Under the pieces are notes generated by a model. That model did not search any database. It had not been told where the DNA came from and saw nothing but the letters and a program-made list of their open reading frames with translations. From the NCBI GenBank assembly GCA_026990595.1, contig JALXCZ010000026.1, positions 22,331 through 54,562 on the forward strand: DNA of 32,232 nucleotides. Direction: 5' to 3'. This document shows positions 1 through 17,187 of the stretch, one piece after another; position 1 is the first letter of the stretch, and each line of letters begins with the position of its first letter. The DNA is from Sulfurovum sp. (GTDB taxonomy: Bacteria > Campylobacterota > Campylobacteria > Campylobacterales > Sulfurovaceae). Position numbers and translations under genes: made by a program.

Positions 1-3000
1 ATTCATGGAATTTAGCTTATATCGGGAAAACTGTAGGGCTACATACTCTTACCCTCACTGTGACAGATACCTATGGATTGACAGCAAGTGATGATGTCCT
101 CGTCTCCGTCTTCGGTTCTACAAAAGACAACTTCATAGTAAATGCAGGAGTAGACCAAAATATCACAACACAAGAGAGTGTTACCCTAGATGGAAGTGAA
201 ACGTATAATCTAGAATATAAAATAATCAAATATGAATGGACAGAAAATGGTACTGTACTAGGGAGCTCACCAGTTGTATGGTTGCAGAGTTTACCATTAG
301 GTGTCCATACCATTACGCTGAGTGCTACCGATATTACAGGAGTGACACTGAGTGATGATGTGATTGTGCGTGTCACCAATGGCACAGATCTTATAGCAGA
401 TGCAGGTAAAGACCAGTATGTTGAGCTTGGAGAGATGGTGACACTTGATGGATCAAACAGCTTTGATCCTAATGGAAACATTGTCTCTTATGTGTGGGAA
501 GAGGGGAACACAACACTCTCAACGCAAGCTACATTTAGCACGTCAAACTTTAGCTTAGGCACACATACACTCAATCTCACAGTTACCGACAATGACGGTA
601 ATGTATCGAGTGATAGTATGAGAGTCATTGTAAGCCCTGTCAATGACACTACTCCTCCACTGGCAGTGATTAGTTCACCTAGCAGTAACAGTGTAGTCAC
701 ATTGCAAACAGACATCATAGGAACAGCAAGTGACAAGCATATCGCTGGCTATAGAGTGCTCATCTCTCCAGTAGGTAAAAATGACTTTACACTCATAGCA
801 GAAAGTAACAACTCTGTCACAGATGATGTACTTGCGACACTAGATGCTACGACTCTTAAAAATGGTATATACGATGTCTCTTTAGAAGTGACAGATACCA
901 GTGGTCTCTCTGCCCATGCATCGACGAAAGTCATCATAGATGGCAAAGCCAAGATAGGAAACTTCTCTTTCACCGTAACCGACTTTAATATCCAAGTAGG
1001 GGGCATACCTGTACAAGTGAATCGTACATACTCAACATTACAAAGGTTTGAGAAGCTAGACTTTACTTACGCGTGGAGTATAGACTACCAGAACGTGAAG
1101 CTAGAAGAGAGCATTCATCCTGGAAAGGCATGGAAAGTTACACCAGATGTACTTATAGGTTCTTGTTTTAAGACTGATAAACAACATATAGTCAATGTAT
1201 CATTGCCAGATGGCACGACAGAGAGCTTTGAGTTTAAGTTTGAATATGAGTGTAGACACTACTTTGTAGGTAGCTTTTATGAAGCACCAATACTTGTCCC
1301 ACTAAATGGTACTGAAGCAAAACTGGAGGTTATAAATGCTCCTATAGATAGTGTTATGGTAAACAATAAAGGAGAACTTTTCAATGGGAGAACATTGGAG
1401 TTATACAATCCTGAAGCATATCGTCTAACTTTACCAAACGGTATGGTATATGAGCTAAGCCAAAAACATGGTATTACAAAAATAAAAGATATACGAGGTG
1501 ACACGCTTACCTATAATCATGATGGAATACTAAGTAGCCGTGGTGAGTCGCTTGCTTTTGAGCGTGATAGCCAAGATAGGATTACCAAAATTACAGACTT
1601 AGCAGGCAAGTCAGTCACCTATCACTATAACCAGAATGATGACCTTGACTACGTCATAGACCAACTCGGACAAAAGACTGAGTATCGTTACCAGGCAGGG
1701 CATCTTTTAGAAGAGTATTTTGATCCAAGCGGACTGAGACTTACTAAAAACATATATGATGCTAGTGGTAGACTCATACAAACTATAGATGCAGATGGCA
1801 ATGTGGTAGAGTTTACACATAATATAGACGGAAAAGAGGAGATAGTCAAAGATAAACTAGGGCGTACCTCTGTCTTTGTCTATGATGATCAGGGCAATGT
1901 ACTCAGCCAAACCAACCCTATGGGCGAGACCACTACCCATACCTATGATGCAAAAGGCAGAGAGCTTACCACCACTGATCCGTTAGGTAATACTATTACC
2001 AATAGCTACGATACTGCAGGAAACCTACTCAGCACAACCGATGCACTAGGTCATAGTGAAACAACGACTTACAATGACAAACAGTCACCGACAAGCAGCA
2101 GCGATAAAAATGGTAATACCCTGAATATCATCTACAACGATTATAATAATCCTCGTTATATAACTACTCCTAGTGGTGCAAAAACTACGTACTGGTATGA
2201 TAAGTTTGGTAATAAAATAGAGAGTATCAATGAGTATAATCAAACAACAAAATATACCTATAAAAACCGTTTTATCTCTTATATCGGTGATGTGTCATCT
2301 ACGGGTAAAGTGGCAAGTGAAACAAGACCTGACGGTACCAAAATCACCTATACCTATGATGAAAGTCTGAACCTACTTACTACCACTACAACCACAGCAG
2401 AAGGTACAACTACTAGTACATCTAACACCTACGATGCCTTCAACCGCGTAGTAAGCACCACAGATGAGCTAAATAATACCACCACCTACGAGTATGACAC
2501 AAGAGGAAACAAAGTAAGTACCACCGATGGCCAAAACAGAACCACACGCTACACATATAACAACCACAACAAGCTTACTAAAACCACTTACCCAGACGGC
2601 ACCACAGAGTCTAAAACCTATGATGCGATGGATAATCTACTTTCTGAAACAAATCAAGAGGGTGAAATCACAAGCTATGAGTATGATGGTGCAGATAGAC
2701 TCATTAAGACTACCTACGCTGATGGTAGCACTACCTCGTCAGAGTATGATGCTGCAGGGAGAGTTATAAGTACAACAGACCAAAGAGGTAACAGTACTAC
2801 CTACGAATATGACGCAGTAGGCAATAAGATTAGCACCACAGATGCACTGGGTAATAAGACTACTTATACTTATGATGCAGAAGGTAATATGCTTAGTGTT
2901 ACTGATGCACTTGGGCATACTATGGCATATACTTATGATGCAACAAATAACAGGATACTTACAACCTACGATGATGGTACAACAGAATCCAGTACCTATG

Positions 3001-5705
3001 ACATCTCGGGCAACAAAACAAGCCATACCAACCAAAAAGGCATCACAACCACTTACAAGTATGACACATACAACCGCCTCATAGAGGTAACAGATGCGCT
3101 AGGACAAAAAACTACCTTCACCTATGACAGTAGAGGAGATAAACTCACCCAAACAGATGCATTGGGTCGTACTACTTCATGGGAGTATGACAGATATGGT
3201 AACGAGATCAGCCGAATTCTCCCATTAGGACAAACTCAAACCGTAAGCTATGATGCACAAGGAAGAGTAGCCAGTAGAACAGACTTTAATGGGCAGGTGA
3301 GTACCTACAGTTATGACATCAATGACCGCATCACTGGTATAAACTATGCAGATGGAAGCTTAGATACCTTTGCTTATGATGCACAAGGGCGTACAAAAAG
3401 TGTCAGTGTTACAGACCCACAAGGGAATGTCTCTACCACAACGTATGCGTATGATGTTCTGGGAAGACTCACTTTGGAGACACAACCCACTGGAGCTACA
3501 CTGGCATACAGTTATGACAGTGCAGGAAACCTCCTTACCCTTACGGTGACCAATGCCTTAGGAGAGATCAGCACTACGACCTATACCTACGATGCCCTCA
3601 ACCGTCTCAAAACAGTAACCGCTAACACAGGCGAAGTCACAAGCTATAGTTATGATGCAGTAGGGAACCAAACAGAGGTGATACATAGCAATGGCACAAA
3701 AGCTCTCTACTCTTATAACACCCTTAACCGCTTAACCAATATAGTACACCAAGACAGCCAAGATACAACACTAGCAAGCTTCAGCTACACTTTAAGCCCC
3801 ACAGGGGAACGTACACAGATAACAGAACTTGCTAAAACCACAACTTACACTTACGATAACCTGGGAAGACTTACAAATGAAGTCATCGTAGACTCAAAAA
3901 ATGGTGACTATACTGCTTCGTATAGCTATGATGCTGTAAGCAACAGAGTACAAAGCATCATAGATGGTGTCACCACACAATACACCTATGATGACAACGA
4001 CAGACTTACCAAACAGGGTGGTACTACTTATACCTACGATGACAATGGCAATACGCTAACTCAAACACTAGATGGTGAGACTACCACTTATACATACAAC
4101 AGCAAAAATCAACTCATAGAACAGATAAGCCCTACCCAAACCATACGCTACACCTATGACAGTAACGGCATACGTACAAGTAAAACAGTCAATGATATAA
4201 CCACACAGTATCTGGTAGACTCCAACCAGCCTTACGCACAGGTACTGCAAGAGTCAGAAAACGACACCCTAACAGTAAGCTATACCTACGGCTCCGACCT
4301 CCTAAGCCAAACAAGAGATAACAAAACCACCACCTACCACTACGATGGTTTAGGAAGTGCCAGATACCTCTCAGACAGTACAGGAGCATTTACAGACAGC
4401 TACGACTACGAAGCCTTTGGAAAACTGCTAAACAAAGAGGGAAACACAACAAACCACTACCTCTACACAGGAGAACAGCAAGATGAAGAGAGCAAGCAGT
4501 ACTACCTCAGAGCCAGATACTACGCACCAACGACTGGACGCTTTACCCAAATGGACAGCTACCAAGGCTCACAGGCAGACCCTGTAAGCCTTCATAAATA
4601 CTTGTATGCCAATGCCAATCCAGTGATGTTCACTGACCCAACAGGGCATTTTTCTATGCTGGACCATACGATGGCAATGGGTATAGCCAATACACTTAGA
4701 GAAGGACAGATAACAGGCTGGACAAAGTCTGTGGAGATACTTCTTGGGCTTATCAATGGAGTGAAGTATGACAGTGTGACGGACTTTGTGAGTTTGCCTG
4801 CACTTGCTGGGACTGCTGTAGGGCTTAGGCTTATGATGCGATTTAGCCCTAAGTTGCAAAAAGCGTGTAAAAACAGTTTTGACGGTCAAACCCTTGTGGC
4901 TACCGAAAAAGGACTTGTGCCTATAGAAGATATAAAAATAGGAGACAGAGTTTGGGCATACAATGAAACAAACCAAACCAAGTCTCTTCAAGAGGTAACC
5001 CACCTAATAAGAGGCGAAGGCAATAAAACCTTAACCGATATAAAATTAGATAGTGGTGAGGTTATTACAGCTACAGCCAACCACCCATTCTGGGAAGTAG
5101 CAGACCATAACTGGACAGAGGCAAGCCAACTTACTCTTGATGATATACTCTTTAATATTCAAGAGAAAAACACTACCATATCATCACTCAAAAGCTACAG
5201 TCAAAATGCAATAGTGTATAATCTTACAGTTGCTAACGACCACACTTACTTTGTGGGTGTTGGTAGGGTTTTGGGGCATAATGCTGGGTGTGTGATACCT
5301 GGTAATGATACATGGGATCATATTTATAATCCATATGTTGAAAATCGTAGAATAAAAGGACTACATCATGCTCCAGCGGGTATATTGCCAAGGGGAGTAT
5401 ATCCTTATAGAGTTTTTCGGCGTAAACATGGGTTTTATGAATTAGGTTTTAATATGCAAGCTGTTGGTTCACAAGCAAGACGACAAAAGGTTACGACAAT
5501 GTTTCCAAATTCTTGGTCACCGAGAATGGTTCGAAGTACAATTAATAAAGCATATATTCGTGCTAAGCAACAAGGTAGTGGAGATATGAGTATACCACTG
5601 AATGATATATTGGGAGATAACCGATATAACGGAATTTCAATTACTGTACACATGCGTGGAAATACACAACAGCCATTTGCTTATCCTGTTATTGGAGGAA
5701 TATAA
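1..5705 (+). CDS. PKD/Rhs-repeat polymorphic toxin with Hint and EndoU-like C-terminal nuclease (5' partial)
   Basis: The reading frame is open from base 3 to the TAA at 5703-5705, so the gene starts left of the window; the in-frame GTG at 60 is used only as residue 1 for numbering. Order: end of one PKD domain, two complete PKD domains (about 26-105 and 112-192), an Ig-like domain (about 200-293), an Rhs N-terminal region, dozens of YD repeats (about 480-1440), an Rhs core ending in a DPTGH-type motif (about 1450-1530), a Hint domain starting near C1603 and ending GHN at 1739-1741, and a 140-residue tip. The tip has H1754, H1769/H1770 and a TMFPNSWS-type segment that recall bacterial EndoU RNases (known family trait: catalytic His-His-Lys). 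In such proteins the Rhs shell encloses the toxin and Hint is thought to release it; that role is inferred here. PKD domains suggest cell-surface display. The EndoU call is less certain than the Rhs/Hint call. Confidence 0.9.
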   Translation, partial: SWNLAYIGKTVGLHTLTLTVTDTYGLTASDDVLVSVFGSTKDNFIVNAGVDQNITTQESVTLDGSETYNLEYKIIKYEWTENGTVLGSSPVVWLQSLPLGVHTITLSATDITGVTLSDDVIVRVTNGTDLIADAGKDQYVELGEMVTLDGSNSFDPNGNIVSYVWEEGNTTLSTQATFSTSNFSLGTHTLNLTVTDNDGNVSSDSMRVIVSPVNDTTPPLAVISSPSSNSVVTLQTDIIGTASDKHIAGYRVLISPVGKNDFTLIAESNNSVTDDVLATLDATTLKNGIYDVSLEVTDTSGLSAHASTKVIIDGKAKIGNFSFTVTDFNIQVGGIPVQVNRTYSTLQRFEKLDFTYAWSIDYQNVKLEESIHPGKAWKVTPDVLIGSCFKTDKQHIVNVSLPDGTTESFEFKFEYECRHYFVGSFYEAPILVPLNGTEAKLEVINAPIDSVMVNNKGELFNGRTLELYNPEAYRLTLPNGMVYELSQKHGITKIKDIRGDTLTYNHDGILSSRGESLAFERDSQDRITKITDLAGKSVTYHYNQNDDLDYVIDQLGQKTEYRYQAGHLLEEYFDPSGLRLTKNIYDASGRLIQTIDADGNVVEFTHNIDGKEEIVKDKLGRTSVFVYDDQGNVLSQTNPMGETTTHTYDAKGRELTTTDPLGNTITNSYDTAGNLLSTTDALGHSETTTYNDKQSPTSSSDKNGNTLNIIYNDYNNPRYITTPSGAKTTYWYDKFGNKIESINEYNQTTKYTYKNRFISYIGDVSSTGKVASETRPDGTKITYTYDESLNLLTTTTTTAEGTTTSTSNTYDAFNRVVSTTDELNNTTTYEYDTRGNKVSTTDGQNRTTRYTYNNHNKLTKTTYPDGTTESKTYDAMDNLLSETNQEGEITSYEYDGADRLIKTTYADGSTTSSEYDAAGRVISTTDQRGNSTTYEYDAVGNKISTTDALGNKTTYTYDAEGNMLSVTDALGHTMAYTYDATNNRILTTYDDGTTESSTYDISGNKTSHTNQKGITTTYKYDTYNRLIEVTDALGQKTTFTYDSRGDKLTQTDALGRTTSWEYDRYGNEISRILPLGQTQTVSYDAQGRVASRTDFNGQVSTYSYDINDRITGINYADGSLDTFAYDAQGRTKSVSVTDPQGNVSTTTYAYDVLGRLTLETQPTGATLAYSYDSAGNLLTLTVTNALGEISTTTYTYDALNRLKTVTANTGEVTSYSYDAVGNQTEVIHSNGTKALYSYNTLNRLTNIVHQDSQDTTLASFSYTLSPTGERTQITELAKTTTYTYDNLGRLTNEVIVDSKNGDYTASYSYDAVSNRVQSIIDGVTTQYTYDDNDRLTKQGGTTYTYDDNGNTLTQTLDGETTTYTYNSKNQLIEQISPTQTIRYTYDSNGIRTSKTVNDITTQYLVDSNQPYAQVLQESENDTLTVSYTYGSDLLSQTRDNKTTTYHYDGLGSARYLSDSTGAFTDSYDYEAFGKLLNKEGNTTNHYLYTGEQQDEESKQYYLRARYYAPTTGRFTQMDSYQGSQADPVSLHKYLYANANPVMFTDPTGHFSMLDHTMAMGIANTLREGQITGWTKSVEILLGLINGVKYDSVTDFVSLPALAGTAVGLRLMMRFSPKLQKACKNSFDGQTLVATEKGLVPIEDIKIGDRVWAYNETNQTKSLQEVTHLIRGEGNKTLTDIKLDSGEVITATANHPFWEVADHNWTEASQLTLDDILFNIQEKNTTISSLKSYSQNAIVYNLTVANDHTYFVGVGRVLGHNAGCVIPGNDTWDHIYNPYVENRRIKGLHHAPAGILPRGVYPYRVFRRKHGFYELGFNMQAVGSQARRQKVTTMFPNSWSPRMVRSTINKAYIRAKQQGSGDMSIPLNDILGDNRYNGISITVHMRGNTQQPFAYPVIGGI

Positions 5706-6178
5706 TGTGGGATACTAACAATAAGCTTATAAGTTCAAAAGTTTTTAATCTCAGAGAATATTTAAATAAATATAAAAATATTGACATGAGTACTATGACT
5801 TTATATGAAATTCAAATCAATGAAGAATTCGGAATAGATATCTTTTATGAAAGAATAGATGCAAGTTGTAACATAGAAGAGTTTCTACTAAAAACAGTAA
5901 TTAAAAGTGAAGATTATACTAAGGTTCCAAGATGGGAAAAGGACGATTGGGATAAATTAGAAAATGCTGGTTATAACATCAATGAATCACTTTATTATAT
6001 TTCATCTGAGGATGCAAAGTTACATATTAAAGAAAAATTATTAGAGAAAAACATCAATGATATAAAGTTAAAGATTGAAAAAATATCAGAAGCTGCAAGG
6101 TGGGGGAAACCAGATCCTAATAAGTTGAACTTAATTTTTATTGATGATAATCATATCTATTTATTGTCTTATTATTAA
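5705..6178 (+). CDS. probable immunity protein of the Rhs/EndoU toxin
   Basis: A 157-residue acidic/lysine-rich protein without signal peptide or membrane segment, so probably cytosolic. Its ATG shares one base with the toxin stop (TAATG), and GGAGG lies just before it inside the toxin gene, which indicates translational coupling. I do not recognise the family from sequence. Position directly after a polymorphic toxin tip, size and composition fit an immunity protein that neutralises the EndoU-like domain; this is inference from context. The DNA is more AT-rich than the Rhs body, as is usual for exchangeable toxin-tip/immunity cassettes. Confidence 0.7.
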   Translation: MWDTNNKLISSKVFNLREYLNKYKNIDMSTMTLYEIQINEEFGIDIFYERIDASCNIEEFLLKTVIKSEDYTKVPRWEKDDWDKLENAGYNINESLYYISSEDAKLHIKEKLLEKNINDIKLKIEKISEAARWGKPDPNKLNLIFIDDNHIYLLSYY

Positions 6179-7235: not shown

Positions 7236-8159
7236 CTATTGGTTTCCCAGGTAATGCTCTGTAATATCTGCCCTAAAATGTTTCATCTCCCAACTTACTC
7301 CCTGTAGAGCCTGCTCGTAACTGTAGCCTGCTTCCTGGTAGGCTCGAACACGATTTTGTGCAAAGGTCCAACGGAATCCATGGGTCCCCTGTGGTGTCAT
7401 ATCCAACCTCAAACAACATTGACGGATATCATCTGCATACTCTTGATAATTTATTTTAAAAATAGGATGACACTCCAAATACCTATCAAGTTCCTCATAG
7501 AGCCAAACAGGTACAAGAATATCTCCAATCTTCCCACCTTTCTCTTTGGTCTCAATTACCCCAACAAGCTTATCTTCAATTTCATCCATACGCAAATCCA
7601 TGAGTTGTTCTTTGTAGATGCGTGTAACACCTTCTGCTCTTGCTCCACCATAAAATTGTATATATGCCGCTATTATATGTTTAGTGCTTGAGAGACTGTT
7701 TATAAGTCTTTCGGGGTGAGGGTAAACCCTGTTATGATACCCATTTGCAAGCATGTTTTGTACACGGGCATAATGTAAAAGCTGATGGGATATTGAAAAG
7801 TTATATATTCGATCTTCACCATGCATCAGTCTGCAAAAATAACGTAATGCCCATTCTAATTTTCCAATAGCCGCAACAATCTTCTCCAGGTATTGTCGGG
7901 AGGGATAATACTCTATCTTGTAAGAGATATATGCATGAATATGTTCTGCTGTGATTTTCTCAAAATCTTTGAGCTTCCAGTGTTCTTTAAGGTAGTTACC
8001 CAGATTGTTCCATACATTTCTGTATGTCTCCATGGTCTGAAATGATGCCACACATTGATAATATGGATGTTTCGAATCTATACGTTGATATTTCTTTGCA
8101 CCTTCTACGAAGATCGCTTTTGTTAGTTGCCCTGTTTGATAATATACAGATCCTCTCAT
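7236..8159 (-). CDS. tyrosine recombinase / site-specific integrase
   Basis: A 307-residue protein with the C-terminal catalytic fold of tyrosine recombinases: R174 in GGARAEGVTR, a lysine-rich beta-hairpin (K205-K210), H260-x-x-R263, H294 and nucleophile candidate Y303 in EHYL near the C terminus. Residues about 40-130 form the helical SAM-like core-binding domain. It cuts and rejoins DNA at specific sites. It is intact by these residues. It runs convergent to the small membrane genes and divergent from the abiE locus, and probably mobilises, or once mobilised, part of this accessory region. The start ATG at 8159 is preceded by AAGGGAC on the minus strand. Confidence 0.85.
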   Translation of the reverse strand: MRGSVYYQTGQLTKAIFVEGAKKYQRIDSKHPYYQCVASFQTMETYRNVWNNLGNYLKEHWKLKDFEKITAEHIHAYISYKIEYYPSRQYLEKIVAAIGKLEWALRYFCRLMHGEDRIYNFSISHQLLHYARVQNMLANGYHNRVYPHPERLINSLSSTKHIIAAYIQFYGGARAEGVTRIYKEQLMDLRMDEIEDKLVGVIETKEKGGKIGDILVPVWLYEELDRYLECHPIFKINYQEYADDIRQCCLRLDMTPQGTHGFRWTFAQNRVRAYQEAGYSYEQALQGVSWEMKHFRADITEHYLGNQ

Positions 8160-8779: not shown

Positions 8780-9433
8780 ATGGAATTGATCAGAGCACTT
8801 AAAAAATTAAAAGCCGTACCTTTTACACATGCTGTACTATTGGCATTACTGAAAGACTACAGGAACCCGGAAGACAAGATAAAACAAATGGTCAAAAAGG
8901 GTGAGATCATTCGTCTTAGAAGAGGGTTGTATGTAGTAGATGAGATATACAGCAATGCCAAGCCCTCCGTGGAACTGGTAGCGAACCTGCTTTATGGACC
9001 TTCGTATATCTCTATGGATTATGCTCTGTCCTATTACGGACTGATCCCTGAACGGGTGTATGAAGTCACTTCCATGACAACAAAGCAAGTAAGATCATTT
9101 GCTACACCTCTAGGACGGTATACCTATATCAAAACATCTGCCTGCCTCTATGGCATTGGACTTGATACTCGGCAGAGCAGTGATGGGATCTATTATATGA
9201 TGGCCTCAAAAGAGAAAGCACTTTGTGACAAACTCCTGTTTACAAAAAAACTGGCTATTCGCTCACAAAAAGCGATGCATGTCTATCTTGAGGAAGACCT
9301 GCGTATAGAGCTTAGTGATCTGTGTAATTTTAATTTGGAAATAATTGAAGCGTGTATGGCTTGCGATCACAAAGTAAAGCTTTTGGAGCTACTGCATAAA
9401 GTAATACAGAAGGAACAGGAAAACAAATGTTAG
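8780..9433 (+). CDS. abiEi: AbiEi-family antitoxin / transcriptional repressor
   Basis: A 217-residue protein with an N-terminal winged helix-turn-helix (about 1-55, ending in EIIRLRRGLYVV) and the AbiEi C-terminal region containing the Y-G-x-S-Y-I-S-x-D-Y-A-L-x-Y-G-L segment (about 72-90) typical of the family. Known role: antitoxin of a type IV toxin-antitoxin and abortive phage infection pair, which also represses its own promoter. It overlaps the toxin gene by 7 bp. The start at 8780 lacks a Shine-Dalgarno but gives a complete N-terminal domain; with the -10 box immediately upstream a leaderless mRNA is plausible. Role in phage defence is inferred from the family and the surrounding island. 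Confidence 0.85.
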   Translation: MELIRALKKLKAVPFTHAVLLALLKDYRNPEDKIKQMVKKGEIIRLRRGLYVVDEIYSNAKPSVELVANLLYGPSYISMDYALSYYGLIPERVYEVTSMTTKQVRSFATPLGRYTYIKTSACLYGIGLDTRQSSDGIYYMMASKEKALCDKLLFTKKLAIRSQKAMHVYLEEDLRIELSDLCNFNLEIIEACMACDHKVKLLELLHKVIQKEQENKC

Positions 9434-10281
9434 AGACTATGCTTAAAAGATACCCCATTGAAAATGCCAATGACTACTACAATGCATTACGAGAAGTACT
9501 GCAGGAAATTGCCTTGGCAGGACTTTACAGAGGAGGGTTTTTTGACAAGGCTGCCTTTTATGGCGGAACCTGCCTGAGAATATTTTATGGCTTGGACAGA
9601 TATTCTGAAGATCTAGATTTTTCACTCCTTGCACCTGATAAAAATTTTACACTTGAACCTTATTTTAAAGCACTAAAAAAAGAGTTTGAATCTTTGGGTA
9701 TAGATATTGACATCACACAAAAGAAGAAGCGTGGCACTACTCCTATAGAGTCAGCTTTTTTAAAAAGCGGTACGATGATACACACTCTCTCTTTGGATAC
9801 AAAGAAACTTTTGAACAATGCACCCATCAAGCAGCAGATCAAGATCAAGTTTGAGGTAGATACCAATCCTCCTCCTGGCTTCAATACTGAAAGCAAATTG
9901 CTCCTGCAGCCTTTTTCATTTTATACACAATGTTATGTAATAGAAGACCTGTTCGCAGGCAAGATGCATGCTTTGCTTTTTAGAGCATGGAAACAACGCG
10001 TCAAAGGAAGAGACTGGTATGACTTTGAATGGTATGTTAAAAATGGCTATGCACTCAACCTGAAGCATTTAACTACCAGGGCTAAAGAGAGTGGAAACCT
10101 GGATGCAGACACCTCTTTTACAAAAGAGTCTCTTTTTCAATTACTCGAAGAGAAAATAAAGACTTTGGATATAGAGATGGTAAAAGTAGATATTAGACGT
10201 TTTATCAAAGATGACCAGGTACTCGATATCTGGTCGACCGAGTATTTTATGTCATTGGCTAAGATGGTGAAGATATCTTAA
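9427..10281 (+). CDS. abiEii: AbiEii-family nucleotidyltransferase toxin
   Basis: A 284-residue protein with the nucleotidyl transferase signature of AbiEii/AbiGii toxins: YGGTCLRIFY (about 46-55) followed by R-Y-SEDLDFS (about 59-67), where the two Asp are metal ligands. A further conserved block, EDLFAGKMHALLFR (about 175-188) and GRDWYDFEW, matches the family. Members modify tRNA 3' ends or similar targets and stop growth; the exact substrate here is unknown. It starts within the 3' end of abiEi (ATGTTAG; ATG or TTG choice at 9427), consistent with coupling. All key residues are present, so the toxin appears functional. Confidence 0.88.
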   Translation: MLETMLKRYPIENANDYYNALREVLQEIALAGLYRGGFFDKAAFYGGTCLRIFYGLDRYSEDLDFSLLAPDKNFTLEPYFKALKKEFESLGIDIDITQKKKRGTTPIESAFLKSGTMIHTLSLDTKKLLNNAPIKQQIKIKFEVDTNPPPGFNTESKLLLQPFSFYTQCYVIEDLFAGKMHALLFRAWKQRVKGRDWYDFEWYVKNGYALNLKHLTTRAKESGNLDADTSFTKESLFQLLEEKIKTLDIEMVKVDIRRFIKDDQVLDIWSTEYFMSLAKMVKIS

Positions 10282-10619: not shown

Positions 10620-10692
10620 AATATAGTATATATTAAGAAGATATTTACATTTAATATACTATATTACATAATGCATAATTTTTAAGAAGGAG
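10620..10692 (+). promoter_or_regulatory. promoter with 12-bp inverted repeat and ribosome binding site for the five-gene operon
   Basis: TTTACA (10644-10649), 17-bp spacer, CATAAT (10667-10672) is a good sigma70-type promoter; AAGGAG (10687-10692) lies 7 bp before the TTG start at 10700. AATATAGTATAT (10620-10631) and ATATACTATATT (10654-10665) are perfect 12-bp inverted repeats that bracket the -35, the right arm lying between -35 and -10. A further TACTATAT half site lies near 10608. This suggests repression or induction by a DNA-binding protein; the binder is unknown. Confidence 0.65.
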
Positions 10693-10699
10693 TTTCAGG

Positions 10700-10918
10700 T
10701 TGGATAAAAAAGAAAAATTCAAAGAACTTGCAGAAAAACGCATGGGTAAAGCCTTGCACTCTATTTATTTGATTGGTAACTTGAGCAATAGGAATAATTA
10801 CGAGTACACCGATAAAGAGGTGAAAAAAATTATAGCATCATTAGAAGATGCTGTAAAAAATGTTAAAAAAAGATTTGAATCATCTACCAAAGGTGATTTA
10901 TTTGAATTTAAATTATAA
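10700..10918 (+). CDS. 72-residue protein, first gene of GHKL/PP-loop operon
   Basis: TTG start chosen because AAGGAG sits 7 bp upstream. The product is a small, basic, probably all-helical protein with a distinctive SIYLIGNLSNRNNYEYTDKE segment (about 21-40). I recall similar LIGNLSNR-x-NYEYT small proteins beside restriction or other defence genes, but cannot verify this. No HTH is evident, though it is small enough to be a regulator or a complex subunit. It ends 13 bp before the ATPase gene and shares its promoter. Confidence 0.65.
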   Translation: MDKKEKFKELAEKRMGKALHSIYLIGNLSNRNNYEYTDKEVKKIIASLEDAVKNVKKRFESSTKGDLFEFKL

Positions 10919-10931
10919 AAAAGGGAAAAGA

Positions 10932-12824
10932 ATGAACGATCATCAATTAATTTTTAGTTCTGAACGTATTCAAAGTGGATTTACCAATGCTTCAATTTCT
11001 GCTTCTAATGATAGGAGCAGTTCGACAATAGTAAGGGAAATTCTACAAAACTCCTATGATTCAGCTATTAACGAAGCAGGTGAACCAACTGCCAAAGTAA
11101 AGTTTATAATTGACTATATATCTAAAAGTGATATTCCTGGTATTAAAGAATACGAACATGCAATAAGCCTTATTGAGAAAGAAGACCTACGTAAAAAAGA
11201 GCAAGAAAGAGATATTTTAAATACTATCAAAGAACAATTAAAAAAAGAAAAGATTCCTGTATTATATGTTATTGATAATGGAGTTGGGTTTACTCAAAAT
11301 AAATTAGTTGCTATTTTAAGTGATGGTATTAGTGATAAAGACAACCCTAATGACTCTGGTGGTTCATATGGTAATGGTCACTTCTCTGTCTTCAATATGT
11401 CTGACTTAAGATATATCATATACGGAGGTAAATTTAATGATGGATCAAAGCTTTGTTCAGGGCAAGCTCTTCTTAGAACATATACAGATAATGATGATTT
11501 AAAATCAGCAACAGGTTTATTGTTAACAAACGATAAGTCTGTAGAGATTAAAAATGATATTTTTTATAAAGACAACAATATACCTAACATCATTAGTTCA
11601 CAACTCGATACTATTGAAAATAGTGGTGCAGTTGTTGGAGTTCTGGGGTTTAACTTCTTTGGTAATGATAATAGCCTTGATAAAGTTATCCAGTTAATAT
11701 CAAGTTCCATAGTTAGAAACTTTTATGCAGCAATATATGAAAATCATCTAGAGGTCGAGATAGCTACAAGTAATAAGAATGTTCAAATTAATGCCAAAAC
11801 TTTAGATGATATATTTCTAGATACTAAAGATGAAAAAAGTAAGCCAAGCTATAACCTCGCAAAGCAATTTTATGATTTGTTAAGAAATGGCAGATGTGAA
11901 ACAATCCCTACCTTAGAGGGTGAAGTAAAAATATATTTTGATTTATCTGAAAGTAGTACCAAATTAGCAATATGTAGAAATGGTATGTGGATTAATGATG
12001 CTCTACCCAGTCCACTATATAAAACCAGTTTTCCAACGAATAAAACATTTAATGCATTAATACTTGCACAAAAAAGTACAAAGTTTTCAGCACTTGTTAG
12101 AAGAGCAGAAAGTAACTCTCATGATAATCTACAATTAAATAGATTTTCAAACGATAAAGAAGGAAAAGAAAAAAGAGCTAGGTTCTCTAATGCCTTAGCA
12201 GAGATAAAAGATTTTTTAGAAAATAATGTTGAGAAAAATGATTATGATTCTTTTGAGTATGAAATCCCTGAATTAGCAATTACAATGATAGGAGACTCAA
12301 AATCAAAAAAGGATCAAAAAAGAAAATCTAACAAAACTAAATCTATTCCTATTAAACCAAAAACAAAACCAACTGAAAAAGATAGTCAGGGTGAAGATAC
12401 TCCTTTTGATCCTAATGACCTAAAGCCTAGTCCACCAAATCCAAATCCACCAAATCCTAATCCGAGAAAAGGAAACCCTTTTGAAATTGGTAGACTAAGT
12501 GCATTTCACAATACAAAATCAAAAGAAGCAAAATTAAAATTTGTAGTCGAAAAAAATGCAACTAATTTATTAATTGCTTTAAGATTGGAAGACGGTACAG
12601 ATCCATCATGTGATAAACTAACTATGACTCCAAGACTTACAATCACAAAAGCCTCAAATAGTGGAAAAACCTGTAAAGTTATCCACAATGACACCGTAGA
12701 TGTAGGAAAGGTTGACAAAGATACAATTGTTGAATTAAGTGTTAATTATGAAACCGATGTGAAAGGTGACTATACAATTGATTATGAATTTTTAAATAGT
12801 GCATTAAAAAAGGATAATAAATGA
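10932..12824 (+). CDS. GHKL (Hsp90/MutL/MORC-like) ATPase
   Basis: The ATG at 10932 follows AAGGG and clears the previous gene; the longer frame from 10860 overlaps it and is rejected. The 630-residue product has the Bergerat ATP fold: N-box REILQNSYD (35-43; E36, N40), G1 box DNGVGF (115-120) and a glycine-rich lid GGSYGNGH (143-150). A coiled, lysine/glutamate-rich insertion (about 75-107) sits between N-box and G1. After the ATPase and transducer-like region comes a low-complexity K/P/N linker (about 455-520, with PPNPNPPNPNP) and a beta-rich C-terminal domain. No histidine-kinase dimerisation His is seen, so it is more like MutL/MORC-type molecular-clamp ATPases. Probable motor or switch of the operon (inference). 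Confidence 0.8.
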   Translation: MNDHQLIFSSERIQSGFTNASISASNDRSSSTIVREILQNSYDSAINEAGEPTAKVKFIIDYISKSDIPGIKEYEHAISLIEKEDLRKKEQERDILNTIKEQLKKEKIPVLYVIDNGVGFTQNKLVAILSDGISDKDNPNDSGGSYGNGHFSVFNMSDLRYIIYGGKFNDGSKLCSGQALLRTYTDNDDLKSATGLLLTNDKSVEIKNDIFYKDNNIPNIISSQLDTIENSGAVVGVLGFNFFGNDNSLDKVIQLISSSIVRNFYAAIYENHLEVEIATSNKNVQINAKTLDDIFLDTKDEKSKPSYNLAKQFYDLLRNGRCETIPTLEGEVKIYFDLSESSTKLAICRNGMWINDALPSPLYKTSFPTNKTFNALILAQKSTKFSALVRRAESNSHDNLQLNRFSNDKEGKEKRARFSNALAEIKDFLENNVEKNDYDSFEYEIPELAITMIGDSKSKKDQKRKSNKTKSIPIKPKTKPTEKDSQGEDTPFDPNDLKPSPPNPNPPNPNPRKGNPFEIGRLSAFHNTKSKEAKLKFVVEKNATNLLIALRLEDGTDPSCDKLTMTPRLTITKASNSGKTCKVIHNDTVDVGKVDKDTIVELSVNYETDVKGDYTIDYEFLNSALKKDNK

Positions 12825-13651
12825 ATAACCTAACAAATTCTCACTCCTTTCCTGTTTTAGAAAAAGGTAAGTTTGACTATAAAGATGATTCTATCTATGA
12901 AATAGAACAAATAAAAAATGATTCTAAGTCAAACTATATTATTTTTGAACATCATCTCAAGGGTGATAATTTAATTTCACAATTTTTAAGAAGTAATGAG
13001 GCAAAGTTTGTAACTACCGTTGTTCAAAAGTCTACAATGTATAGAGAAACCATTGATTCTATTTTAGAATCAAAATCACCCGTAAAGATTTGGCAAGAAG
13101 TACCCTTAAAAACAACACTAGAAACACAGAACTTCTTATCTAGCATTGTTTATATTGGAGAAAATAAAAAAATAACATTAAATTCTGAAACAATGGGCTT
13201 AGATGATTTTTGGGATGGTATTACTATTGAATTAAAAAAGGGAGCTATATTAGCTAGGGACGATTGGAGAGAACTTGAAAGTACAGCAAGTGACTTACTT
13301 ACTATTAGACGGGATGATACAATTAAGTATGGATTTGATGTTGATGTTATTTCTGAAGAGGGAGGTAGGTTCATGGCTAATGTACAACCGGAACTTTATG
13401 ACAAAATAAAACAACTCTCTAGAGATAATTCACATCTCAGAAGTTTAGTTATTCATATGTTATGTATTGGCTTTATGAATTTAGCTAAAGATTTTAAAGA
13501 AGATGATAGTGAATTAACTAACTTCAAAGGTATCAAATCTGACTTAGAAAATAAAGGTATTAAAACATGGTCAGAAGATGATTTTAATGCAAATCAAGTT
13601 GCATGTTATTTCTTGAGACACAATATAAAACTGGAGGAAGAAAATGAATGA
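12821..13651 (+). CDS. unrecognised 276-residue protein of the GHKL/PP-loop operon
   Basis: Overlaps the ATPase gene by 4 bp (ATGA), so it is translationally coupled. The first two thirds look beta-rich; there is a GLDDFWDGITIELKKGAILARDDW-type stretch (about 126-149) with conserved-looking W and acidic residues, and the last third (about 185-225) is helical (ELYDKIKQ, LRSLVIHMLCIGFMNLAKDF). No signal peptide, catalytic signature or metal site is apparent. I cannot assign a family. The context suggests a subunit acting with the ATPase. Confidence 0.75.
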   Translation: MNNLTNSHSFPVLEKGKFDYKDDSIYEIEQIKNDSKSNYIIFEHHLKGDNLISQFLRSNEAKFVTTVVQKSTMYRETIDSILESKSPVKIWQEVPLKTTLETQNFLSSIVYIGENKKITLNSETMGLDDFWDGITIELKKGAILARDDWRELESTASDLLTIRRDDTIKYGFDVDVISEEGGRFMANVQPELYDKIKQLSRDNSHLRSLVIHMLCIGFMNLAKDFKEDDSELTNFKGIKSDLENKGIKTWSEDDFNANQVACYFLRHNIKLEEENE

Positions 13652-14477
13652 TCTAAACAATGGTTTAAACAGACTAAAAAACATTACTGAAAACAGAGTA
13701 GAATCTATTAGATTACTAGAGTCGGCTTTAGACAAAAATAAATTCCTTGAATATCTTTCAAACTACTTTGATCCAGTAGACCTAAAAAGTGAAGTAGATT
13801 TTTCAAGTTTTCAAGAGAGACTATCCGAAAATGAATTTCAGCAACCCCATTATCAATATCACTACCCTGCTCTTTGGAGTACATTAGATAAAGCAAATTT
13901 TACCCCTCAAGAGGCTAAAAATCCAATAAAATGGCTTTCAATTACTTATCAAGCTATTGAAAATGATATAATTCACCCACATTATTTAGCATTCCTTGAT
14001 AAAAGTAGAGACGGCAAAAAGAATATTCACGAAGCATTAAGATTAGCACAAAAAGGTAATGATAATAAACTTTTTGAGGTTTGCAGAGCAATTCTTCGAC
14101 GAACATTTGGGAATATTAAAGAGCGTCGAGGAAATGGAGTATATCAAGACATACCTTTTGCTATTGCATGGTGGAAAATTTACCTTGCAAAAGAAATTTC
14201 AAAAACTACTTCTTTGGAAGAAAAAGATATAATTCAATTCTTTTTTAATTATAAAGACCACTATACTCACTTCATATTAAATATGAAGGGTCGATTAACG
14301 ATTATTGCTGATATAACAATAAGGAATGCTTTAATGTTATATATCATAAATAAAAAAACTACAGGAACTGCTTTTAAAAAAGTTATGGGAAAAATAGGTA
14401 TTGAATCATCATGGAGATCTATGGGAGCATTAAACGCTGAAGAAAACAAAAAAATCATTGAAAGTTTGGTTACGTGA
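13644..14477 (+). CDS. unrecognised 277-residue helical protein of the GHKL/PP-loop operon
   Basis: ATG at 13644 after GGAGGAAG; overlaps the preceding gene by 8 bp and the next by 4 bp. Predicted by eye to be mainly alpha-helical, soluble and basic, with aromatic motifs (QYHYPALWST, IAWWKIYLAK) and a basic patch CRAILRRTFGNIKERRG (about 150-166) that could contact nucleic acid. A DUF6339-like identity came to mind but is only a loose recollection and should not be relied on. Function unknown; gene order implies a dedicated component. Confidence 0.75.
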   Translation: MNDLNNGLNRLKNITENRVESIRLLESALDKNKFLEYLSNYFDPVDLKSEVDFSSFQERLSENEFQQPHYQYHYPALWSTLDKANFTPQEAKNPIKWLSITYQAIENDIIHPHYLAFLDKSRDGKKNIHEALRLAQKGNDNKLFEVCRAILRRTFGNIKERRGNGVYQDIPFAIAWWKIYLAKEISKTTSLEEKDIIQFFFNYKDHYTHFILNMKGRLTIIADITIRNALMLYIINKKTTGTAFKKVMGKIGIESSWRSMGALNAEENKKIIESLVT

Positions 14478-15700
14478 ACTTAAGTCATTATTACACTAAA
14501 GAATATCATTCTAAACTTTCTCATGTTGTAAAGTTCTCAGGCGGACGATCAAGTGGTGCATTACTATTTACAATGCTTGAAAATAATATGCTTGATGCTA
14601 ATCGAGGCGATGTTATTATATTTAATAACACGTCTGCAGAACACCATAAGACTTATGAATTTGTCATTGAATGCAAACGAAGATGTGAAGAGCAATATAA
14701 TATCCCTTTCTTCTTAACTGAATTTCAAACATACGAAGACAGTAAGAATGGTATTTATGATAGATTTTCTACATACAAACTTGTAAATGATAAACCATAT
14801 TCAAAAGATAATCCTCATGGCTATCATACAAAAGGTGAAGTTTTTGAAGAATTAATTTCATGGCAAGGCTATCTACCTAGTTTATTAAGTGGTCGAACTT
14901 GTACAAAAAACATGAAGATGGATACAACAGTCAACTTTTTAAATGACTGGTTTACATTTAAAGAGTTCAATCTTCCTTTAGCTAGATTAGGTCATTATGG
15001 TAGAGAAAGTCGAATTGATAGAGATTTATTGTATGAAAAACATTTGAAACATGGGGGAAGTGTTCCTAAGGAAATTTATTTAGAAAAAAAAGAGTATTGT
15101 CTTCAACGACCTTTTTATCGAGATGAACAAAATTTCAAAGATTATACCGCAGTAAATATAGAAAATAAATCCTTATACTCTAAAGATGGTTCAATAGAAT
15201 ATTGCAGTTTCATAGGTTTTAGAGCCGACGAACCATTAAGATTAGAAAAAATGAAGAAAAGAATTGATGAAGAGGACAATAATAAAATATCTGTTGCATA
15301 TCTTCGTGAAAAAAATGAACATATATATGCTCCTATGGTTGAATACGGTATTACTCAAAGTGATGTTAAAGATTTTTGGGATCAACAGGAATGGGATTTA
15401 GGATTACCCTATGATGGTAGTCTTGGAAATTGTGTTTATTGCTTTATGAAAGGTGGAGCAAAACTGGCTAGCATAGAAGAAACTACCAATGAATTAGTAC
15501 CTGAAAATATTGATTGGTGGATTGAAATTGAACGAAAATATCAAAGAGATCTAAAAGCCGAGGGGAGAGAAACTACAACAACAGAACACCCTTTTATTAA
15601 TTTCTTTGGAGTAGGGAAAAAACTTTCATATGAGGTTATAAAAAACCGTGATAACCCAGATATTATTGAAAATAGTTTACCCTGCAATTGTACTGATTAA
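14474..15700 (+). CDS. PAPS-reductase/PP-loop ATPase family protein (DndC-like class)
   Basis: GTG start at 14474 overlaps the previous stop (GTGA). The 408-residue protein has a PP-loop SGGRSSG (22-28, after VVKF) that binds and adenylates using ATP, with Arg where many relatives have Lys. It has a FNNTSAEHHKTYEF segment like the phage-type PAPS reductases, RTCTKNMKM (about 136-144), a CxxC pair in NCVYCFMKGG and a terminal PCNC. These Cys could hold an Fe-S cluster or carry sulfur, as in DndC, but that is inference. PP-loop enzymes of this group act in sulfur transfer, including DNA phosphorothioation; this one lacks any visible dndB/D/E or sspB-type partner. It is the last gene of the operon. 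Confidence 0.82.
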   Translation: MNLSHYYTKEYHSKLSHVVKFSGGRSSGALLFTMLENNMLDANRGDVIIFNNTSAEHHKTYEFVIECKRRCEEQYNIPFFLTEFQTYEDSKNGIYDRFSTYKLVNDKPYSKDNPHGYHTKGEVFEELISWQGYLPSLLSGRTCTKNMKMDTTVNFLNDWFTFKEFNLPLARLGHYGRESRIDRDLLYEKHLKHGGSVPKEIYLEKKEYCLQRPFYRDEQNFKDYTAVNIENKSLYSKDGSIEYCSFIGFRADEPLRLEKMKKRIDEEDNNKISVAYLREKNEHIYAPMVEYGITQSDVKDFWDQQEWDLGLPYDGSLGNCVYCFMKGGAKLASIEETTNELVPENIDWWIEIERKYQRDLKAEGRETTTTEHPFINFFGVGKKLSYEVIKNRDNPDIIENSLPCNCTD

Positions 15701-15739: not shown

Positions 15740-16576
15740 TTAACTATCCAATATCCCAGCCTCAATAAGAGCCGAAGCAAATCTCCCTTTGGCTTCTTTA
15801 TCCAAGCTATCAAGCATTTGTTTGTGATTTTTAAGTAATCTCTTATGCTCTGCTGTCATTTCTCCTAGAGCCTGAGAAAAATAATCAGTATAGTTTTCAA
15901 ACTCTCTCATAAGACGCTCTGTTTCTTTGTGGTAATCCGTCCCACCGATGGATTTGATCTCTATATGATGAGGATCAATCCTCTCAAGGTTCCAGATGGT
16001 GCCTTTTTTGGTTTTGATGATCCTGGCTTCCTGTTTTGTATGAGAGGTGAGGATATCCATGACATTTTGAGAATAACCGATCCTTGGTTTCCATGCAGAG
16101 AGCAACCCTGCATCCTCACACAAAAGCATAAAACGGTAAAAATCTATATGGCTACTACCAAGCGTACTCATGTGGATGTGAAAACCTGTCTCTTCATTGG
16201 TATAGCCATATTGCTCTATCAGAGGCAGGATCTTTTGAATATAGTGGAGTATCCCCTCTTTGGTAGAAATAGGCACCGATATCTCTACTCCATGATCTTC
16301 TAGTGAAATATCTGGCTTGATCTGCATACAGTGGTTTTTATCTGCTGCATGAGGGATAGATATCTCATCTACCAAAATATCCGCAGAAGTAAGTTCATAA
16401 AGAGCTTTTGCTAGAGTACCGATCACATCTGAGAAAAGATACTGTTCTGTATCTATATAAAACTCAAATTCGCACCCATAACGACAAAAATCATCTTTTT
16501 TTGGCGTAAAACTTTGGTATTTACAACTACCGTTACCTTGATAGCGTTTTGTTGTCCCCTCTAAAATATATTTCAT
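15740..16576 (-). CDS. amidoligase family enzyme
   Basis: A 278-residue protein with the signature blocks of the amidoligase (COOH-NH2 ligase, glutamine-synthetase-like fold) family: GCEFEFY (34-40), KPDISL-x-x-HGVEISVP (87-102) and TGFHIHMS (130-137), whose acidic and His residues bind metal-ATP. It likely forms an amide bond between a carboxyl and an amine, for instance a gamma-glutamyl-type linkage. Its ATG overlaps the stop of the cyclotransferase gene by one base, so both are made together. Amidoligases paired with AIG2-like cyclotransferases are a known genomic theme (Iyer, Aravind and colleagues), proposed to make and remove peptide tags or small metabolites. The C-terminal part (about 215-278) is helical. 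The substrate is unknown. Confidence 0.85.
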   Translation of the reverse strand: MKYILEGTTKRYQGNGSCKYQSFTPKKDDFCRYGCEFEFYIDTEQYLFSDVIGTLAKALYELTSADILVDEISIPHAADKNHCMQIKPDISLEDHGVEISVPISTKEGILHYIQKILPLIEQYGYTNEETGFHIHMSTLGSSHIDFYRFMLLCEDAGLLSAWKPRIGYSQNVMDILTSHTKQEARIIKTKKGTIWNLERIDPHHIEIKSIGGTDYHKETERLMREFENYTDYFSQALGEMTAEHKRLLKNHKQMLDSLDKEAKGRFASALIEAGILDS

Positions 16577-17187
16577 TATGCCCCTATCGCAGTCTCAAGA
16601 TAATCCTCAAGCTGCTTTACTTTATAATCTGTATCTGCTTTCCACTCTCTAAGCGGTTTTTGTCCCTGTGGTATAGCAGTGTGAGGCTGTATATATACAA
16701 ATGCTCTTACCGTGCCTCTATGCGTCTTTACAAGGATCTTTTTTCTCTCGTAGTAATCAGGATAGCCTTCAAACCTATCAAGTTTCTCTAAAAGCTCTTT
16801 TCGGTGTATCTCGTAGAGCTCTCCATGTATCCTCATTTGTGGTACAGGGATCAAATAAGGATAGTTCCCGAAACTGTCCTCAAACATCCCAAACTTACTC
16901 ACAGTAATAGCTTTACCGATCCTTTTGGCATGTTTACTTAACAGATGATGGTTATCAAAGCCTTTTTTGAGGGAGCCGTAAACAAAAAGCATCTCTCTAA
17001 AAGGCTCGATCCGCTTAAACTCTCCTCGTCCAGTGATCGTAATGATCCCTCTATCATGAAGGCGGTGCAGTATCTTTCTAAGCGTATCTGTTGAGATATC
17101 TTTTGTTTTTACCCTGGAAAAAGGCACTACAGTATTTATAGAAAGTTTATTTATTTTTCGTTCGATCTTGTCTATGTACTTATCCAT
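16576..17187 (-). CDS. winged-HTH / gamma-glutamylcyclotransferase (AIG2-like) fusion
   Basis: A 203-residue protein. Residues about 1-62 look like a winged helix (PFSRVKTKDISTDTLRKILHRLHDRGIITI, then a wing), and residues 66-190 form the cyclotransferase fold with the substrate loop VYGSLKKG (69-76) and the catalytic-type Glu E140 in LDRFEGYP, followed by YYERKK. The enzyme family cleaves gamma-glutamyl amides to 5-oxoproline. The fusion of a DNA-binding domain to this enzyme suggests ligand-controlled transcription, and a matching palindrome lies at its own promoter. It is the first gene of a two-gene operon with the amidoligase. ATG at 17187 is preceded by AAAGGA. Confidence 0.82.
   Translation of the reverse strand: MDKYIDKIERKINKLSINTVVPFSRVKTKDISTDTLRKILHRLHDRGIITITGRGEFKRIEPFREMLFVYGSLKKGFDNHHLLSKHAKRIGKAITVSKFGMFEDSFGNYPYLIPVPQMRIHGELYEIHRKELLEKLDRFEGYPDYYERKKILVKTHRGTVRAFVYIQPHTAIPQGQKPLREWKADTDYKVKQLEDYLETAIGA

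Follow-up and report, generated by a model that had tools for sequence, protein, structure and literature searches.

A conserved Campylobacterota operon joining a PDC-M33-like GHKL ATPase core to a PAPS-reductase-type PP-loop protein

What kind of system is encoded when a GHKL ATPase and a PP-loop protein of the PAPS-reductase type stand in one compact, AT-rich operon, and what does the PP-loop enzyme do there? We addressed this question for positions 10700-15700 of the window, which is the whole stretch of 32,232 nucleotides analysed. A sequence-only reading had proposed a five-gene defence or nucleic-acid modification operon at this place, with a combination of genes that could not be assigned to any known system. 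We refer to the genes as the small gene, A (the GHKL ATPase), B, C and PP (the PP-loop protein), and to operons that contain the latter as PP operons (Table 1).

The operon and its copies in other genomes

The frame check finds all five reading frames at the places claimed. The compact arrangement described in the sequence-only reading was borne out as well: 13 nt separate the small gene from A, and the junctions downstream of A are overlaps (A/B -4, B/C -8, C/PP -4 nt). A starts at 10932, the mechanical call at 10860 being wrong, and a Shine-Dalgarno sequence (AAGGAG) lies a few bases ahead of the TTG start of the small gene at 10700. The promoter-like site upstream is suggestive at most, since 10/12 matches occur at about the same frequency in shuffled sequence. 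The operon is also AT-richer than its surroundings, as had been claimed, with a G+C content of 30.3% against 36.3% in the left and 41.7% in the right flank (28–31% compared with 36–45% around it).

Table 1 Operon genes and neighbouring features in the window, with positions, strand and the basis of each assignment.
Feature	Position	Strand	Basis
Divergent tyrosine-recombinase-like protein, neighbour	7236..8159	-	Phage_int_SAM_1 E 0.03; HGFRWTF, EHYLG read
AbiEi antitoxin, neighbour, outside operon	8780..9433	+	PADLOC AbiEi E 5e-72
AbiEii nucleotidyltransferase toxin, neighbour	9427..10281	+	PADLOC AbiEii E 9e-118
Promoter-like site TTTACA-17-CATAAT	10644..10672	+	Ahead of operon, 10/12 consensus matches
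72-aa small helical protein	10700..10918	+	Wider small-GHKL family marker; optional in PP clade
A, GHKL ATPase, paraMORC2-like, PDC-M33A	10932..12824	+	PDC-M33A E 9e-39; own family profile (40 canonical A proteins) E 2e-58
B, PDC-M33B	12821..13651	+	PDC-M33B E 3e-12; profile-profile 98.3%, E 1e-14
C, divergent DUF6339 / PDC-M33C	13644..14477	+	Profile-profile (PP-clade against canonical C) 93.1%, E 3e-7
PP, PAPS-reductase-type PP-loop protein	14474..15700	+	phrog_424 E 3e-28; SspD E 2e-7; BrxP E 2e-5

Among the neighbours named earlier, the AbiE pair is confirmed by strong matches; the integrase is only weakly matched, although HxxR and a late tyrosine can be seen in it. Elsewhere in the window, positions 60-6178 encode an RHS/YD-repeat protein of 1881 aa that has a Hint-like region and a variable C-terminus; together with the 157-aa gene behind it, it resembles an interbacterial polymorphic toxin and its immunity gene. 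An amidoligase-like gene (no Pfam match) lies at 15740-17187 beside a GGACT gamma-glutamyl cyclotransferase (E 5e-25) and four tRNA genes, and 26399-29329 encodes a protein of the MutS family that carries an HNH nuclease domain at its C-terminus (MutS7-like by sequence reading).

A search for PP in 397 genomes of the phylum returned three further full-length copies, and a search for B in 399 genomes of the order added one more operon. All four loci (L107, L108, L109 and L142), which come from genomes of the same order, carry A, B, C and PP side by side on a single strand, in the same order and with conserved junctions. Identities to the window, given for A/B/C/PP, are 64/68/60/71% (L107), 65/66/56/72% (L142), 42/36/36/48% (L109) and 32/24/29/49% (L108). 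Such a recurrence is not due to chance. The five-gene unit proposed earlier thus stands as a four-gene set, the small gene being absent from these four operons.

The PP operons occupy unrelated sites. One of them, in genome G300, is inserted alone between rimP and ribD, which are contiguous in genome G266, and in L107, L108 and L109 the operon has housekeeping genes beside it. Every full-length PP of the Campylobacterota sample lies inside an A-B-C-PP operon, and the operon occurs sporadically, in 4 of about 400 genomes. In another genome, the sixth, which belongs to the same genus as the window, there remains a decayed PP of 100 aa beside transposase-like fragments (L143, 4870-5172), which indicates loss of the operon. 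Together, these observations support a conserved, horizontally moving A-B-C-PP operon of defence type. In a 200-genome sample of the class, window B found itself alone, and PDC-M33A found one further weak match. The viral contigs gave no match to window B, window C or the PP-clade alignments of A and B, and among plasmids only canonical A was found, with no match to window C.

Kinship of A, B and C and the link to cytosine methyltransferases

A carries the motifs E36/N40, DNGVGF and GGSYGNGHFS, an ExxxH in the S5 domain and a C-terminal DGTDxxCD. The GHKL glutamate and the G-rich motifs are kept in all A proteins and are intact in 5/5 PP operons; the ExxxH stands at 393-397 in 41/41 aligned A proteins. 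DGTDxxCD, on the other hand, is found near the C-terminus of A in 5/5 PP operons versus 0/40 canonical ones. Pfam gives weak GHKL/sacsin matches for A, and a PDB sequence search nothing better than a weak match to MORC3 (E 0.12).

Its closer relatives are found on plasmids of Deinococcus, Lactococcus, Arthrobacter and Ligilactobacillus, where A is followed by B and then by a DUF6339-type protein, several of these plasmids having a 75-aa gene in front of A. The plasmid operons tested match PDC-M33A, B and C, a candidate defence system of PADLOC. The PADLOC check named in the sequence-only reading gave a divided answer for the window, with A and B matching PDC-M33, no match for C, and weak SspD and BrxP matches for PP. 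Profiles extend this kinship: window A is found by the profile of 40 canonical A proteins (Table 1) and window B by that of canonical B (1e-9), and the PP-clade A profile matches canonical A at 100% and 8e-40 in profile-profile comparison. Window C matches neither PADLOC nor Pfam models, nor the canonical C profile alone; it has the third place and the size of PDC-M33C, and comparison of our own profiles (Table 1) links it to PDC-M33C / DUF6339 as a divergent homologue. Judged by sequence, A, B and C are not new; they are a divergent branch of PDC-M33, C probably so, with the same gene order and similar sizes. The branch differs from PDC-M33 in the added PP, in a C too divergent for the PADLOC models, in the absence of a linked cytosine methyltransferase or Vsr, and in the small gene, which is usually missing. 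The earlier claim of an unmatched combination holds for the pairing of GHKL and PP-loop proteins, which is undescribed in PADLOC, Pfam, NCBIfam and the literature searched; it does not hold for A-B-C.

A also fits, by its motif, the paraMORC2 family described in 2008. Iyer, Abhiman and Aravind (2008, PMC2292703) give a strongly conserved ExxxH in the C-terminal portion of the S5 domain as the hallmark of paraMORC2, and place the family among several of GHKL type that occur in restriction-modification loci together with cytosine methylases and Vsr. A neighbourhood with a cytosine methylase, Vsr or a helicase is typical of the family without strictly defining it. The Campylobacterota branch shares the GHKL-S5 ATPase with ExxxH and differs in its own DGTDxxCD and in its PP-loop gene, no such gene being mentioned in the sections of PMC2292703 used here. 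A further prokaryotic GHKL ATPase of an assayed anti-phage system is VcSduA, a Shedu protein with a paraMORC3-like GHKL domain (PMC12137116); unlike A, in which none is seen, it carries its own PD-(D/E)xK nuclease domain.

For B and C we used AF2 models of canonical homologues. The B family model (pLDDT 84) has an Fn3/Ig-like beta-sandwich at the N-terminus and a helical C-terminus, and fold searches with Foldseek and VIA-align return generic Fn3/Ig sandwiches (best Z 8.1, to an Fn3-type domain) that indicate no function. The C family model (pLDDT 89) is mostly helical and has no confident structural match in the PDB or among viral models (Foldseek best E 0.9), which is not proof of a new fold. 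No nuclease motif was recognised in A, B, C or PP.

The 72-aa protein is 40–60% identical to homologues in many phyla, usually encoded directly upstream of a GHKL gene. A resemblance to trigger factor (E 0.017) was taken as a chance match. We scanned one genome per species with an alignment of the small protein, which gave 187 matches, and kept 80 loci. Forty canonical operons of the order small-A-B-C were assembled, most of them at genome loci and others on plasmids or on one viral contig; at the other small-gene loci the protein in the GHKL position is longer, or B and C are lacking.

A cytosine methyltransferase (Dcm) lies within 6 kb in 32/40 canonical operons, at a median distance of 509 nt, as compared with a chance expectation of about 2% (our own estimate, taking a density of roughly 1.5 Dcm genes per Mb, as counted in five genomes). 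The linkage persists in operons with complete flanks (21/25) and in clusters at 70% identity (25/32). A Vsr nuclease accompanies 19/40, none of the 40 has a PP, and canonical copies adjoin AbiG, Shedu, type II restriction genes and related systems. This sample is biased, the small protein having served as bait; since PP operons usually lack the small gene, any that lie outside Campylobacterota could have escaped the search. At the non-canonical small-protein loci, Dcm was found within the searched flanks in 9/33, indicating that the GHKL part can also exist without methyltransferase linkage.

None of the five PP operons has a Dcm or a Vsr within 6 kb of available flank, the L142 contig ending about 1.1 kb upstream of the operon and 2.6 kb downstream of it. 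For Dcm, the difference from the canonical operons gives a Fisher p of 0.001, ignoring shared descent. Genome G300 has no Dcm anywhere, and the other four PP genomes have Dcm genes elsewhere. An unrelated Dcm restriction locus on the same contig in genome G366 was rejected as a partner; 6.7 kb separate it from A, with purA, a hisZ-like gene and alaS in between. In a maximum-likelihood tree of 60 A proteins, the five from PP operons form one clade (100/100) on a long branch inside the canonical A-B-C radiation; the exact sister group of this clade is unsure, given the program's warnings about long branches and atypical composition. The exchange of methyltransferase for PP would accordingly count as one event and not as a repeated pattern.

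The PP-loop protein

PP gives a weak PAPS_reduct match in Pfam and nothing in a PDB sequence search. It is closest to phage-type PAPS-reductase-like proteins of unassigned role (phrog_424, Table 1), to which it is clearly homologous, sharing the PP-loop SGGRSSG, C143, K148, R250-D252-E253, W302 and GNC320xxC323, together with a C-terminal cysteine. It differs from them in being about 100 residues longer and in its fixed four-gene operon. The arginine in SGGRSSG, which had been noted earlier, turned out not to be diagnostic, as the phage relatives have K, E, Q, R or Y at this position. Of the cysteines named earlier, the CxxC in GNCVYC (C320, C323) is kept, and one PP operon of the five lacks the terminal CNC. 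Among 14 operon and phage-type relatives, C143, C320 and C323 are present in 14/14 and C406 in 13/14, the exception being the PP of L109. The PP of G300 runs into ribD without the last cysteine. From the sequence pattern, the four cysteines could hold an iron-sulfur cluster.

Matches to BrxP (2e-5 to 2e-7) and SspD (2e-7) cover mainly the PP-loop region. The operon resembles type 4 BREX and the Ssp/Dnd systems in this weak match and in having a PAPS-reductase-type enzyme where other systems have a methyltransferase. It differs from them in its GHKL ATPase, in a PP nearer to phage-type proteins, and in its missing partners: the operons encode no SspA, SspB or SspC and no DndA/SspA-like desulfurase, and BrxC and PglZ have no match in the operon. 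In the PADLOC scan no Dnd model matches any operon protein, and Mza and Qat components give no match at E up to 1 (the library may not hold all their models). DndE was not found in the five genomes, in a search run without a positive control. The cysteine desulfurase of the window genome passes the cut-off of the epsilonproteobacterial model, which points to a Campylobacterota member as the probable host, and G300 has neither NifS-epsilon nor a strong Aminotran_5 match. A role of PP in assimilatory sulfate reduction is not supported, the operon being without any other sulfate gene.

Possible roles of the operon

The strong link to Dcm and Vsr suggests that the PDC-M33 core is probably modification-aware. 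We consider it plausible, while holding it with somewhat less than even confidence, that PP took over from the methyltransferase the role of marking enzyme for this core. The paraMORC2 GHKL core A-B-C would be a defence module that normally accompanies a cytosine-5 methyltransferase, often together with Vsr; in the Campylobacterota clade the methyltransferase linkage would have been lost and a PAPS-reductase-type PP taken into the operon. PP would activate a nucleic-acid group with ATP, by AMP transfer and release of PPi, and its cysteine cluster would install a modification, probably sulfur, on host DNA. A dimer of A may close as an ATP-driven clamp on DNA, with B as a binding adaptor and C as a helical coupler or effector, so that A, B and C together would act on unmarked DNA.

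This marking proposal is better motivated because canonical operons are Dcm-linked and PP operons are without Dcm. It is further favoured because the pattern repeats the swap documented for type 4 BREX, in which the methyltransferase has given way to a PAPS-reductase for phosphorothioation (PMC12839542); cytosine methylases are also reported to stand in place of PT genes beside CXC-ABC-ATPase systems (PMC10853773). Against it, the operons encode no desulfurase partner, the desulfurase complement of G300 is weak, and no nuclease can be recognised; the closeness of PP to phage-type proteins and the Dcm genes kept elsewhere in four of the five PP genomes count against it too. A more tentative reading is a GHKL (paraMORC2) restriction-like immunity whose self mark, sulfur or another ATP-activated DNA modification, would be set by a phage-type PP-loop enzyme independently of Dnd, Ssp and BREX, and which would have arisen by replacement of the cytosine-5 methyltransferase.

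The same genes could be wired differently, with A (together with B and C) sensing infection and switching on PP as an effector that attacks tRNA, a nucleotide pool or some other molecule of host or phage by adenylation or thio-chemistry and ends the infection. Several features agree with such a role, among them the 4/25 A-B-C loci with complete flanks that have no linked methyltransferase, the two-gene small-GHKL forms, which are often without Dcm, and the nearest PP relatives, which are phage proteins. PP is also the last gene of the operon and translationally coupled to C, and the DGTDxxCD of the PP-clade A could serve for docking or switching. The strong canonical Dcm linkage, however, points to a modification-aware core, and an enzyme swap is the simpler explanation for its disappearance from the PP operons. 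We regard an effector PP as the main rival and as less likely than a marking PP.

We judge it less probable again that A-B-C is complete without modification and that PP is an accessory, for example for repair or regulation, or a means of countering modified phage DNA by recognising or altering the phage modifications. The phrog_424 proteins are indeed common phage accessory genes, and the small gene illustrates that components of this family can be gained and lost; an accessory, however, sits poorly with a PP that is present in 5/5 intact operons with order and short junctions kept, and with the confinement of each full-length PP of the Campylobacterota sample to this operon. A nucleic-acid maintenance or sulfur-metabolism operon carried on mobile DNA, with no defence function, would agree with the housekeeping neighbours of L107, L108 and L109. 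It is quite improbable given that PDC-M33 is a PADLOC defence candidate, that canonical copies lie beside AbiG, Shedu and type II restriction and the window copy beside AbiE, and that the operon is AT-rich, sporadic (as counted above) and decayed to a remnant in one genome.

PDC-M33 is a widespread candidate for which we found no published experimental report; nor did the literature searched (bioRxiv through PMC-deposited preprints) contain a description of the A-B-C-PP system. The PP branch offers a natural experiment, with the methyltransferase lost from the locus and a PP-loop enzyme in the operon. If PP sets a mark, the branch would represent an independent lineage of non-methyl DNA marking and would suggest a role for a large group of phage PAPS-reductase-like proteins; if PP is the effector, it would be a new effector class for GHKL systems.

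The small gene also occurs in other arrangements. At L110 (G008:C1), in Campylobacterota, the small protein precedes a 741-aa protein, with a 580-aa Dcm nearby. On plasmids, the small and GHKL genes lie upstream of GajA-like and UvrD-helicase genes in a Gabija-like arrangement (L013, L015). A two-gene element of the small gene and a 621-aa GHKL gene is nearly identical in Maricaulis, Hirschia and Rhodobacteraceae (L073, L075, L077, L079), with no Dcm in the searched flanks, and this near-identity indicates that the element moved recently.
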